Shown here: positions 387 through 3,907 of the stretch, one piece after another | Layout of the letters: each line of letters begins with the position of its first letter | Numbering within the stretch: position 1 is the stretch's first letter | From: Verrucomicrobiota bacterium | GTDB taxonomy: Bacteria; Verrucomicrobiota; Verrucomicrobiia; Palsa-1439 | DNA: 33,012 bases | Direction: 5' to 3' | Assembly: GCA_003152315.1 (NCBI GenBank) | Contig: PLZV01000046.1 | Span: 1 to 33,012, forward strand | Notes under the pieces: model-generated | What the model was told of the DNA's origin: nothing | Databases searched by the model: none | What the model saw: the letters and a program-made list of their open reading frames with translations, nothing else | Translations under genes and position numbers: made by a program

Positions 387-707
387 GTGGCGAGCAAACC
401 CAAAAGACGCAAGGCCGGTCTGGCCCCTGTCAATTATTCCGCCCCTCCCGAACGCCTCATCGCAAAGGACAGCATCCCTGTCCGCCGTAGCCTTGGCGAA
501 GGAGGAAATCCCCTCGACGGCATCGTCATGGAACCCGGCGCGCTCGCACCACTCAATTGCGTTTACCGCGACGACCCGCACGGCATCTTCCTCTACCAGG
601 GCGACTGCCTCGAAGTCCTCGACGCCATCGCCGCCAAACACCCCGACGGCTGTTTCGACATGATCTTCGCCAACTCGCCCGAACGAGTAAACTGGCTTTT
701 TCGATGA
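387..707 (+). pseudogene. Truncated site-specific DNA methyltransferase (N-terminal stump)
   Basis: The 106-residue product carries the start of an adenine/cytosine-N4 DNA methyltransferase. The signature LYQGDCLEVLDAI at about residues 69-81 is followed by CFDMIFA, which in intact members leads into the catalytic (D/N)PPY motif. Here the chain goes to NSPERVNWLFR and stops, so the catalytic tetrapeptide, the SAM-binding half and the target-recognition region are missing. Homology seems to end near 672-680. The start is a GTG without a clear ribosome binding site. The gene also contains an in-frame dispersed repeat at 478-506. Together with the endonuclease tail at about 3148-3254 it looks like one end of a broken type II restriction-modification locus. 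It is almost certainly non-functional. Confidence 0.7.
478..506 (+). repeat. Dispersed repeat inserted in frame in the methyltransferase
   Basis: The segment GTCCGCCGTAGCCTTGGCGA followed by AGGAGGA encodes SLGEGG on the plus strand and FAKATAD on the minus strand. I recognise this pair of peptides from dispersed repeats in PVC and candidate-phylum genomes, where they often read through genes. No second copy was found in this window, so the repeat status rests on recollection. It sits between IPVRR and NPLDG of the methyltransferase stump without breaking the frame. Confidence 0.45.
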
Positions 708-786
708 AGTTCCAGTAATCTGCGCAACGTGAGGGCGTTCAGACCAATCGACATTGCTCTAAGATTTGGGCCCAAACAACGCCGCT

Positions 787-1713
787 ATGCCTAACCCGAT
801 TCGAACACGGTTTGTCGAAGACCTGAAAAGCCGATTTGGCGTCGTCCGAAAACTGGAGGGCAGCGAATCTTTATATGAAGTAGGAAGTAGTGGTGCCCGT
901 GTTTACATCCGATACTCGCGCGTTCATAACAATAAGCGGGGATTCTACGGGCTAAGACACAGAGACCTGCAAGACTTAGAGGGGCATCCTTCGGTGGTGT
1001 GTTTCCTTTGGGACAAACAACAAGAACCGCTGCTCGTACCGTTTGCGGAGTACGAAGACTTGTTTCATACCCTCTCACCTGCAAGCGACGGCCAGTTCAA
1101 AGTGATGGTATATCCCCAAGATGAAGGTACCCAGCTTTACATAAACAATGTTGGTCGATTTAGTGTCGAAGGTCACTTTGGATGGGACAATCTCTCGGCC
1201 ATCGTAGGTTCATCCCGCGTTACCACAATTCCCGACCTGTCTCACTCCCAAGTGCAGACGCTTCTCGGCGCCATTGGCTGTGCGAAAGGATTCGATATTT
1301 GGATTCCGCCCAACAACCACTCTACGCTGGATTGGACTGTCGCCAATCAATTTAAGTGCCGCGGAAAATTCCCATCGGGCTTGGAGGCAGTTGCTGCTGT
1401 CGCGCAAGAAATCGATGTTATGTGGATAAAAAAGGGGTCGAACGATCCCCAGTCGTTGTTTGAGGTTGAGCATTCAACCCCAATCTATTCCGGGTTACTT
1501 CGATTCAACGACCTGCACCTCATTACCCGCAATCCAAAACTGCGCTTCAGTATCGTTGCCAATGATGCAAGGAGATCGGTTTTCGCCAGGCAATTGGGTC
1601 GACCAACATTTCAGACGAGTGGACTAATGGAGCTCTGCACTTTTTTTGAATACGGCGACGTGTTCGCGTGGCATAAACGAATCATGGAAGAGAAGGAGAG
1701 GGCACATCAATGA
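787..1713 (+). CDS. Predicted PD-(D/E)XK-type nuclease (restriction-like)
   Basis: A 308-residue protein with no firmly known function. The C-terminal half holds EIDVMWI at about 214-220 and FEVEHSTPIYSGLLRF at about 230-245. An Asp followed about 15 residues later by an E-x-E on a hydrophobic strand is the spacing expected of a PD-(D/E)XK nuclease core, and the FEVEHST...YSGLLR block is one I associate with restriction-type proteins (recollection). The N-terminal part (VYIRYSR, FYGLRHRDL) could be a recognition domain. ATG 787 is used; a TTG at 766 would add seven residues, and neither has a good ribosome binding site. The stop overlaps the next start as ATGA, so the two genes are translationally coupled. 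Its base composition looks lower in GC than the purine genes, which suggests transfer. It lies inside the broken restriction-modification locus. Confidence 0.6.
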   Translation: MPNPIRTRFVEDLKSRFGVVRKLEGSESLYEVGSSGARVYIRYSRVHNNKRGFYGLRHRDLQDLEGHPSVVCFLWDKQQEPLLVPFAEYEDLFHTLSPASDGQFKVMVYPQDEGTQLYINNVGRFSVEGHFGWDNLSAIVGSSRVTTIPDLSHSQVQTLLGAIGCAKGFDIWIPPNNHSTLDWTVANQFKCRGKFPSGLEAVAAVAQEIDVMWIKKGSNDPQSLFEVEHSTPIYSGLLRFNDLHLITRNPKLRFSIVANDARRSVFARQLGRPTFQTSGLMELCTFFEYGDVFAWHKRIMEEKERAHQ

Positions 1714-1889
1714 ATCGCAAAAGAAAGCGACGACCAATCTGGATTGCAGTCCAGGTTTGGCGAGGAATCCCAGTCGAAGTGAAAGCATTTCACGATCGTC
1801 AACTCGCTGAGAAGCGCGAATCCGCTTGGCGGAAGAAGATGCACGTCGATTACGACGAGACAGGGCTGTTCGCGGTCCGAGTTCAGTAG
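1710..1889 (+). CDS. Small basic protein coupled to the predicted nuclease
   Basis: This 59-residue ORF (MNRKRKRRPIWIAVQVWRGI at its start, ending LFAVRVQ) begins in the ATGA overlap with the preceding nuclease-like gene, a strong sign of translational coupling. Its N-terminus is highly basic (MNRKRKRR), followed by a beta-rich stretch WIAVQVWRGIPVEVKAF and an acidic segment near MHVDYDETGLF. There is no membrane segment or signal peptide. I do not recognise the family. It could be a nucleic-acid-binding accessory or regulatory partner of the nuclease-like protein (inference from coupling and charge). The reading frame is open for exactly this length and the next bases leave it quickly. Confidence 0.6.
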   Translation: MNRKRKRRPIWIAVQVWRGIPVEVKAFHDRQLAEKRESAWRKKMHVDYDETGLFAVRVQ

Positions 1890-1936
1890 TGCCGGTTTTC
1901 CGCCAATCTCGTCCGTTCGGGTCGGAGATTCTCGCG

Positions 1937-2062
1937 ATGAAATCCATGCAGCAAGAGCTCTACTCCGGGCCGAGATACTACGAGGGCGAGCTTTACAACA
2001 TCATTCGTCACGGACGCGGCGTGCCCGCTGTGCCATTAGTGCTTGTCGGCGTTGAGCCGTAA
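1937..2062 (+). CDS. Possible 41-residue small protein or gene fragment
   Basis: A short ORF starting MKSMQQELYSGPRYYEG and ending in a hydrophobic LVLVGVEP. GGAG nine bases before the ATG is an acceptable ribosome binding site. The same frame is open upstream to 1826, so it may be the tail of a longer broken gene instead of a true small gene. It lies 47 bp after the coupled nuclease-like pair and 14 bp before the stop of the convergent gene. The family is not recognised and no function is proposed. Confidence 0.3.
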   Translation: MKSMQQELYSGPRYYEGELYNIIRHGRGVPAVPLVLVGVEP

Positions 2063-2076
2063 CCGCACCTAACGAG

Positions 2077-3075
2077 TCACACCTCAACGCCCCTTGTTTC
2101 CCACGGCAACTCAACTCCAAGTTCTCCTCGAGCATACTCCGATCCGGATGCAACGTCAGAGGCGAGCCTCAATCGGTCAGCATCGAAGAGTTCTGCAACC
2201 TCCAGTGTAAACTCGCGCGGTAATTCCCTGCATATTTCTATGAACTTCTCACCGGTCTGATCGGAAGAAACTGCGGCGCAACGAGCGGCCCACACGATGA
2301 ACCGCAAAATCCGTTTGTCGCGTTCATTCTCGAAATCATCTTTACAGAAACATGTCCTCTGAAAAACCGCGCGCGTTATCATTGCTAGCGTGCTCCAACC
2401 GTGAGGCAATGCTAGTGAAGTGGGAGCGGTTTGCTCCAGGTCGCAACAAATTCTAATCCAGTGCGGAAGTAGCTTGGAAGAGTTATTGGCAGGAGCCGCG
2501 TTAGGCCAGAGAACGTCGATATACTGGGTTTCGGGCAGCGGCCAAGGTAGCACGCACGTCATCCGAACAGCATTTATCTCCAATTCACTGTGTCCTCTAA
2601 CCAATTCCGAGTCGATGTAAAGGCGGTTACCCGGCTCGCTTTTCTCCGCCAGCGCCACCTTCAAACCTGCCAATGCGTAGTTGCGCAGAAACACCTGGCG
2701 GTTCGCCTCATCTTCCTTCTTCTCCGAACGCTTCCCGAAGGGCACTAACTGTTCTTCGCCGTGCACCAGTGCTCCTCTGATCCACAATGGGTCATCCGGA
2801 GTATCGAGATTGTCGAAAGAAGCAAACAGATAAAGCGTCGCAAGCTCTAGTAGTGGCGCGTAGGGCGTGAGTTCGGCGCCCCGCCAAGTGACAACAAGCG
2901 AGTCACTGAAAATCTGTGCGTCATCGGGATAGACTGAAGTTCCTTCTAATGCCCACCGCTCGCACAATCTTGCGAATCGTTCAATTCTGGATTTCCCTTT
3001 TTCAATGTCGCGACCTAAAGCTGAACGCGTGCCCAGCAAATCGACAATTCCCAGCATAAACGGTTGGGCCAACAT
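2077..3075 (-). CDS. Predicted divergent class III cyclase-like palm-domain protein
   Basis: A 332-residue protein without an obvious named family. Three N-terminal features match the class III nucleotide cyclase/GGDEF palm fold. IVDLLG has an Asp at residue 12. FSDSLVV at 56-62 has a second Asp at residue 58, and the 46-residue spacing is close to that of the two metal-binding Asp residues in class III cyclases. RGALVHGE at 100-107 sits where cyclases have a VRIGIHTG-like strand. NYALAGLKVAL followed by RLYIDSELV resembles the next helix and strand. Whether it makes a nucleotide is unknown; the C-terminal half is unassigned. It has no signal peptide or membrane helix. It is convergent with the nuclease-like pair and sits inside the broken restriction-modification locus, so a defence role is possible but unproven. 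ATG at 3075 is used; Met7 is an alternative. Confidence 0.5.
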   Translation of the reverse strand: MLAQPFMLGIVDLLGTRSALGRDIEKGKSRIERFARLCERWALEGTSVYPDDAQIFSDSLVVTWRGAELTPYAPLLELATLYLFASFDNLDTPDDPLWIRGALVHGEEQLVPFGKRSEKKEDEANRQVFLRNYALAGLKVALAEKSEPGNRLYIDSELVRGHSELEINAVRMTCVLPWPLPETQYIDVLWPNAAPANNSSKLLPHWIRICCDLEQTAPTSLALPHGWSTLAMITRAVFQRTCFCKDDFENERDKRILRFIVWAARCAAVSSDQTGEKFIEICRELPREFTLEVAELFDADRLRLASDVASGSEYARGELGVELPWETRGVEV

Positions 3076-3147
3076 GGTCTTGGATTACATTCCGGCCATT
3101 ACTCGCACAGATGCAAGCCAACTTTCGCGCACGAACCAGAGTAGTTT

Positions 3148-3254
3148 CACCTGACAATCGCCACGTCAAAGACAAAATCCGCCAGCAACTCCAAGTCCTC
3201 CGCGACACCGGTTTCCTCTCCCACGTCGAGCGCGGAGTATGGTCGATCCGCTAG
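3148..3254 (+). pseudogene. C-terminal stump of a DpnI/Dam-replacing-type restriction endonuclease
   Basis: The plus-strand frame ending in TAG at 3252-3254 reads PDNRHVKDKIRQQLQVLRDT and then GFLSHVERGVWSIR. The block HV(R/K)DKIRQQLQVLRD followed by a short glycine-containing strand is the signature end of the winged-helix domain in DpnI C-terminal/Dam-replacing restriction enzymes. The upstream in-frame sequence (about 3075-3147) does not resemble the family, so the gene has lost its catalytic part and start. The stop codon overlaps the stop of the minus-strand gene at 3251 as CTAG. It mirrors the methyltransferase stump at 387-707. It is too short for a normal gene call. Confidence 0.7.
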
Positions 3255-3712
3255 TCTTCGGCTTCCAGAGCCTGTTTTTGGGGCGTCTCTACCGCGACGG
3301 AAGGCGATGCTGCCTTCGGTAAGTGGTCCACTTCGTATTGAAGTTTCTCCAATTGCAACCGCATCATCTTGTCCTGATCAGGCTGCACCTTCCAGTGCCA
3401 CATCGAAAACCCGAAGGCCATTATAACCAAACCAAATCCGGCGAGTACTCCAAGTGCTTTGTCAAAAAACTGTCTGTCCTGAACCGCTATTTCGTAACGC
3501 CTTTCCAAAACCTTTTTCTTGGCCAACACTTCTGGCGACGGGTTGGTGGTCTCCGGAATTGCCGCGTTTTCGATAATCGTTTGGAACACGGTTTCATTGG
3601 CTGTGCGTGCGTTGTAAACCGACGAGCCAATGCTAAATACAAACAGCAGCAATCCAAACAACGCGTAGAACTTGTAGATATTGTCCGTCGGAAGCGGGAT
3701 TCGGCTTTCCAT
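3251..3712 (-). CDS. Hypothetical two-helix membrane protein
   Basis: A 153-residue protein with two hydrophobic segments, about residues 13-33 (FYALFGLLLFVFSIGSSVY) and 86-106 (ALGVLAGFGLVIMAFGFSMW). They are separated by a charged, probably helical loop containing EVLAKKKVLERRYEIAVQDR. A charged tail with a short heptad-like stretch (MMRLQLEKLQYEVDHL) follows. It looks like an inner-membrane protein with an extracytoplasmic loop. No family is recognised. Copy A of the duplicated palindrome unit lies just upstream of its start and could carry its control region. The stop overlaps the stop of the endonuclease stump. Confidence 0.6.
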   Translation of the reverse strand: MESRIPLPTDNIYKFYALFGLLLFVFSIGSSVYNARTANETVFQTIIENAAIPETTNPSPEVLAKKKVLERRYEIAVQDRQFFDKALGVLAGFGLVIMAFGFSMWHWKVQPDQDKMMRLQLEKLQYEVDHLPKAASPSVAVETPQKQALEAED

Positions 3713-3739
3713 AACGCCACCCTATCAACCCGGCCCGCG

Positions 3740-3907
3740 ACTTTCCAGCTTTACACAACCTGTCGCCATACTCGTCTCTCCTGCTGTGCCTGATACATAT
3801 CTAAGATATGTATCACCTCCCTCCCATCGCTGATACATGGTAGTACCATGTATCGACAGTACACACCGTTTCCCGTCGCCTCCGGGGATATTGGCGGTGC
3901 GCTTGGA
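3740..3907 (+). repeat. Duplicated intergenic unit, copy A
   Basis: This ~170 bp unit is repeated in direct orientation at 4100-4272. Shared parts in order are a CTTTCC-GCTT-ACACAACC-GTCGCC block, the palindrome with arms TGATACATATC, a second palindrome with arms GATACATGGTA, then CCGTTTCCCGTC followed by CTCCGGGGA-ATTGGCGGTGCGCT. The copies differ at scattered positions and in the spacer between the palindromes, so the duplication is not recent or is under selection only at the palindromes. It lies directly upstream of the membrane protein gene that starts at 3712. Confidence 0.7.
3791..3854. promoter_or_regulatory. Paired GATACAT palindromes, copy A
   Basis: Two perfect inverted repeats. 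At 3791-3815 the arms TGATACATATC/GATATGTATCA flank TAA. At 3832-3854 the arms GATACATGGTA/TACCATGTATC flank a single G. Both share the outer half-site GATACAT. Their centres are 40 bp apart, near four helical turns, as expected for cooperating dimeric DNA-binding proteins (inference). No regulator gene is adjacent. Confidence 0.55.

Follow-up and report, generated by a model that had tools for sequence, protein, structure and literature searches.

We found that the reading frame at positions 2077-3075 of the window, the whole 33,012-nucleotide stretch of Verrucomicrobiota DNA analysed here (contig PLZV01000046.1), encodes a far-diverged member of an unnamed protein family, recognisable above chance. 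This family is common in bacteria and prophages and has no Pfam or NCBIfam name that we found; its members share the predicted fold of class III nucleotide cyclases, a conserved pair of metal-site aspartates followed by an arginine, and a frequent placement in defence loci. With somewhat better than even confidence, we interpret the window protein as a Mg-NTP-binding accessory enzyme of defence loci. The object of interest is the family and not the single divergent copy in the window: it shares fold and metal site with cyclic-nucleotide enzymes but lacks the residues that define their chemistry, and it occurs repeatedly in restriction operons. Should the family produce or sense a nucleotide, an unrecognised layer of nucleotide signalling would be added to type I restriction and to ParA-like ATPases.

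The first-pass annotation had singled out D12 in IVDLLG, D58 in FSDS, 46 residues further on, and RGALVHGE at residues 100-107, and had likened their order and spacing to the palm-domain elements of class III cyclases. The translation agrees at every one of these residues, and the distance of 46 compares with 44 in all 16 class III cyclases from related genomes; in the unnamed family this distance ranges from 39 to 87, with a median of 53. From Asp to the RxG motif, the window protein has 42 residues and the 16 class III cyclases have 42-54. The frame has 332 open codons on the minus strand, opposite a plus strand with stops throughout, and a G+C content by codon position of 0.59/0.44/0.55, a difference usual in genes. 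The reading frames of the surrounding cassette (766-3075) have a G+C content of 50-53%, versus 59% in the rest of the window, which suggests imported DNA. The gene would have been acquired horizontally, and its product would be a far-diverged representative of widespread small soluble proteins with the palm fold.

Table 1. Features at and around the cyclase-like gene
Feature	Position	Strand	Details
Possible DNA methyltransferase, N-terminal remnant	387..707	plus	YQGDCLEVL...PDGCFDMIFANSPE, by eye; breaks off at cassette edge
Type II restriction-endonuclease-like ORF	766..1713	plus	315 aa; TTG start; PADLOC REase_II 1.8e-10
Small ORF, no family	1710..1889	plus	59 aa; start codon (ATG) in a 4-nt overlap with the end of the REase-like ORF
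Cyclase-like palm-domain protein	2077..3075	minus	332 aa, from ATG (3075) to stop (2077); D12 and D58 as metal Asp; Arg100 of RGALxxGE motif; palm domain, residues 1-160; low-confidence C-terminal part, residues 165-332
DpnI-like restriction enzyme, C-terminal remnant (Dam-replacing HTH domain)	3102..3254	plus	Pfam DpnI_C 2.1e-12

Searches with the window protein yielded no BLAST-level relatives in GTDB contigs, viral contigs, plasmids, phages, 57 relatives or 388 genomes of the phylum, and no match in Pfam (the class III cyclase model PF00211 included), NCBIfam, PADLOC, PHROGs or a PDB sequence search; among the PHROG models, no family was matched at E values up to 10. The bridge to the family was provided by a bait consensus, modelled on a common kind of hypothetical protein that has similar motifs; its sole use was to retrieve real sequences, and the profiles that tested membership did not include it. 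This bait retrieved real proteins in 21 of the 388 phylum genomes, in 21 plasmids and in one phage. Against a profile of about 30 members, built without bait or window protein, the window protein scored 10.2 bits, compared with 5.5 for the best of 2000 shuffles; with 148 members, and again without the window protein, the scores were 11.9 and 4.5. Among the 291 window ORFs, the window protein was the sole clear match to the family profile (E 0.0022; next 0.88). One apparently unrelated protein among 419 real neighbour proteins reached 10.0 bits, so the profile score alone is not proof of membership. A class III profile on its own did not detect the window protein, so its sequence does not place it among the class III cyclases.

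Alignment added positional detail. In a 27-row alignment, D12, G15, D58 and G101 are invariant columns and L14, S57, R100 and G106 nearly so; in this and in a 104-row alignment, the family motifs DxLG, [FI]SD[ST] and RG[AG]xxxG occur in order in the window protein, with D12, G15, S57, D58, R100, G101 and G106 all present. The family's GxAxxxAYxLE helix is less certain, as RNYALAGLKVALAE of the window protein can be aligned to it in more than one way, and a C-terminal Lys that is 84% conserved in the family has no clear counterpart there. The sequence evidence for membership is real but thin, and it leans on the bridging family and the structure model.

The family itself is well populated. Among GTDB contigs, 247 loci were confirmed in a scan, of which 80 were kept (Bacteroidota, Pseudomonadota, Bacillota, Planctomycetota and others), and a further 35 viral contigs carry a family gene. 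Almost all aligned members (94 of 99; best E 4e-65) match PHROG_23933, a cluster with no function given, and hence belong to the same family; no Pfam or NCBIfam family covers them, and Guanylate_cyc was matched weakly by six members (best E 0.0053). Searched against the PDB, the family profile retrieved mostly class III enzymes, both adenylate and guanylate cyclases (best 4e-4), and its comparison with a class III cyclase profile drawn from related genomes gave an E value of 5e-8, aligning the D, D, R.G and G....A..LE motifs. Two members drew separate attention. In Spirosoma, the annotated gene Slin_6686 (L060 5119-6930) encodes 603 aa, with an extra N-terminal part of ~270 aa, and on an Acinetobacter plasmid an IS3-family element splits the family gene (L063 4391-4684 and 5965-6450), the copy in L057 being uninterrupted.

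Structure prediction supported a palm fold of the class III cyclase type for both the family and the window protein, and the different fold that would have spoken against the first-pass annotation was not what the models gave. The model of a family representative (pLDDT 90) superposed on soluble guanylate cyclase with a Z score of 16.1 (3.1 A over 161 residues). For the window protein, block means of pLDDT were 72-94 over residues 1-110, confidence was low over the C-terminal half (165-332) and residues 165-227 were unmodelled; compared with class III cyclases, the model gave a Foldseek E value of 4.6e-5 and a Z score of 12.4 (3.3 A over 155 residues). Its Foldseek matches include the uridylate cyclase 8jsz and the cytidylate cyclase 8jsf, and the GGEEF domain 6eib ranked below class III cyclases. 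The alignments used for modelling left out plasmid- and phage-derived rows, and since AlphaFold was given the family alignment for the window protein, with a possible bias toward the family fold, that model is not fully independent of the family.

Conservation of the active site is split between metal binding and catalysis. Both metal aspartates are 99% conserved in the family, rather than lost in most homologues. For the first, this is partly a product of selection in the GTDB and viral loci, which were scanned with the motif DILG taken from a closer sequence set; the second lies outside that pattern. The Arg of the RG motif is R or K in 146 of 148 members (91% R, 7% K). In class III structures, the Arg in the R.G strand contacts the triphosphate, which makes NTP binding by the family a plausible prediction. 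By contrast with class III cyclases, the family does not conserve the catalytic residues: the column of the transition-state Asn holds I or V in 102 of the 148 members and N in five, that of the transition-state Arg holds mostly E, L, K or Q and R in nine, these being family counts, with the local alignment of the window protein ambiguous at both columns. The base-selecting residues (Lys/Asp or Glu/Cys) are not kept either: at the position of the Lys (D2-4), K occurs in 12 of the 148 members, and the window protein has Q54. Canonical cAMP or cGMP synthesis is therefore not supported. Cyclase-like proteins that have lost only the Asn exist (DUF2652, and Rv1900c as cited in PMC4886424), but the joint loss of Asn, Arg and base residues argues for other chemistry or for none. 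The proposal of a nucleotide cyclase is accordingly supported for fold and metal site but not for canonical cyclase chemistry.

We extended the analysis to the gene neighbourhoods of family members, where restriction and other defence genes are often adjacent. In the 80 GTDB loci, with genes called by a simple ORF picker and figures given as counts of matching models or members rather than as a formal test, the immediate neighbours matched 473 PADLOC models (many of them redundant, e.g. HsdS) versus 44 for more distant genes on the same contigs; Pfam families among the immediate neighbours were HsdS, N6_Mtase, Eco57I, PDDEXK_4, AAA_21, TIR_2 and ResIII. Three Clostridia loci (L180, L188 and L167) share the order hsdR-hsdS-cyc-hsdM; in another (L084), the family gene lies between an upstream HsdS and a downstream HsdM-related ORF; and a genome of the same class as the window (L262 1205-10485) carries an operon of HsdM, DUF262, HsdS, the cyclase-like gene and a Rad50-like ATPase, with 4-nt overlaps. 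In addition, Dsr1 lies upstream of the family gene in Agrobacterium, and an AbiU2-type HEPN gene adjoins it in L075. The restriction associations fall on several separate branches of the family tree. In one of the Clostridia loci, a tandem pair of family genes (L167 7947-8792 and 8961-9785) sits between HsdS and HsdM within one type I restriction operon.

A second arrangement was observed in seven loci (L085, L091, L092, L144, L163, L182 and L184), where a ParA-like ATPase gene stands directly upstream of the family gene and in most of them ends within a few nucleotides of its start, abutting or overlapping it. These ATPases form one family, 42-70% identical among the loci, and the linked cyclase-like proteins form one clade (support 0.96) drawn from viral contigs, Gammaproteobacteria and Bacillota; the two genes may constitute a two-gene system. 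The recurrent partners are thus type I restriction operons in several lineages and an overlapping ParA-like ATPase in one clade; many other members are solo, with no defence neighbour, among them plasmid copies beside metal-resistance genes. Neither the family nor a ParA-cyclase module is described in the literature that we found, the nearest being DUF2652 (PMC4886424).

At the window locus, database matches bear out the restriction-like neighbours that had been reported (Table 1). Relatives of the REase-like ORF cover only residues ~155-298, and its C-terminal half is common to six related genomes; none of these six loci has a family gene within ~1.5 kb of the restriction-enzyme homologue. 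The DpnI-like remnant corresponds to the last 50 codons of the enzyme and lies just beyond the start of the cyclase-like gene. A genome of the same genus (G002, L260 3182-3958) has an intact 258-aa DpnI-like gene beside a 486-aa gene, and the window matches it at 79% over the remnant and at 85% over 3642-3719; with an intact enzyme and a matching flank in that genome, the place looks like a site of defence-gene swapping. For the methyltransferase-like remnant, Pfam and PDB searches were not significant. The cyclase-like gene converges with the REase-like ORF and the 59-aa ORF and does not form one operon with them; it has no type I restriction operon beside it, and no ParA-like partner was found among the 291 window ORFs. 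The genome also carries an ordinary class III cyclase elsewhere.

Among known systems, class III cyclases (PF00211; Ma1120, Rv1264, soluble guanylate cyclase) share with the family the palm fold, the order and spacing of the metal aspartates, the R.G....G strand motif and the G....A..LE helix motif; besides lacking the conserved transition-state and base-selecting (Lys/Asp) residues, the family differs in having its own C-terminal helices with a conserved Lys. Members match PHROG_23933, whereas the window protein does not. DUF2652 proteins (PMC4886424) are likewise soluble and class III-like, keep the metal aspartates and have Ile for the transition-state Asn; unlike the family, they retain base residues, as Lys-Glu or Glu-Lys, and in most cases the Arg, and DUF2652 is not among the Pfam families listed for family members. 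The mCpol protein of Panoptes, related to the Cas10 palm (PMC12657230), is also a minimal palm-domain nucleotide enzyme in defence loci, but it has a di-glycine di-aspartate active site of Cas10 type and a 2TMbeta effector, whereas the family, which aligns to class III cyclases, carries FSDS. The GG[DE]EF motif of diguanylate cyclases is absent from the window protein, which has FSDS at the second metal Asp.

According to the favoured reading, Mg-NTP would be bound between D12, D58 and R100 and either turned over or used as a switch, with the protein serving the neighbouring defence genes as an accessory enzyme. As the family lacks the Asn/Arg pair of class III enzymes and their purine-selecting residues, the protein probably does not make cAMP or cGMP in the standard way; a different cyclisation, a nucleotidyl transfer or an NTP-gated regulatory step on a partner could take the place of that reaction, the regulated partner being a restriction complex or a ParA-like ATPase. 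For the window protein, the adjacent REase-like gene is the likely partner; because the genes are convergent and not one operon, a solo role is also possible. A broader version, which we put forward only tentatively, holds that the family consists of undescribed palm-domain NTP enzymes with non-class-III chemistry that serve as defence regulators or signal makers, with the window protein pairing with the REase-like gene; it includes the ParA-like ATPase and cyclase-like genes as a coherent module and the cyclase-containing type I restriction operons.

The loss of consensus at the Asn, Arg and base-Lys columns, together with the recurrent physical coupling to HsdS/HsdM or a ParA-like ATPase, would also fit a pseudo-cyclase that has kept fold and metal site for nucleotide or metal binding and regulates the restriction complex or the ATPase as a non-catalytic sensor or scaffold. 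We regard this as rather unlikely: the Asp residues (99%) and the Arg (98% as R or K) are conserved across diverse members to a degree beyond what binding usually demands, and atypical cyclases that dispense with the Asn exist (Rv1900c, as cited in PMC4886424).

A true second-messenger synthase of a defence system like Pycsar or CBASS, the systems to which the first-pass annotation drew a comparison, would have as its effector either the restriction-like neighbour or a protein encoded elsewhere; we judge this reading improbable. The class III-like fold of the window protein, which PycC shares, and its defence neighbourhood are consistent with such a role, as is the spacing of its metal aspartates, 46 residues compared with 44 in both PycC enzymes described (D102/D146 and D62/D106; PMC11224242). 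Unlike PycC, however, the window protein has no linked CNBD effector. A CNBD profile that detected 30 of 30 control loci found no such gene, either among the 291 window ORFs, where the best E value was 0.31, or in 125 family loci, which agrees with the earlier failure to find a nucleotide-sensing effector and leaves Pycsar or CBASS membership unsupported. No recognised effector is adjacent, no PADLOC or Pfam cyclase model matches the protein, and the family does not conserve the Asn/Arg pair. With respect to the pol-beta-like CD-NTases of CBASS, class III cyclases make up the listed fold matches and the protein matched no PADLOC model; absence from these lists does not amount to exclusion.

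A decaying gene, or an unrelated orphan protein whose short motifs match by coincidence, is very improbable, for although BLAST relatives are lacking, residues 165-227 are unmodelled and the neighbouring remnants show decay at the site, all 332 codons are open, four invariant family columns are in register, and profile rank and fold matches agree.

Beyond the cassette, the minus strand at 3251-3712 encodes a 153-aa protein that matches phrog_19745 (2.7e-20; no function given) and has two hydrophobic stretches by eye. Further on, at ~3790-3860, we observed a palindrome, tgatacat...atgtatca, of which L260 has copies at several sites and on both strands; it is perhaps a MITE or REP-type repeat of the genus.
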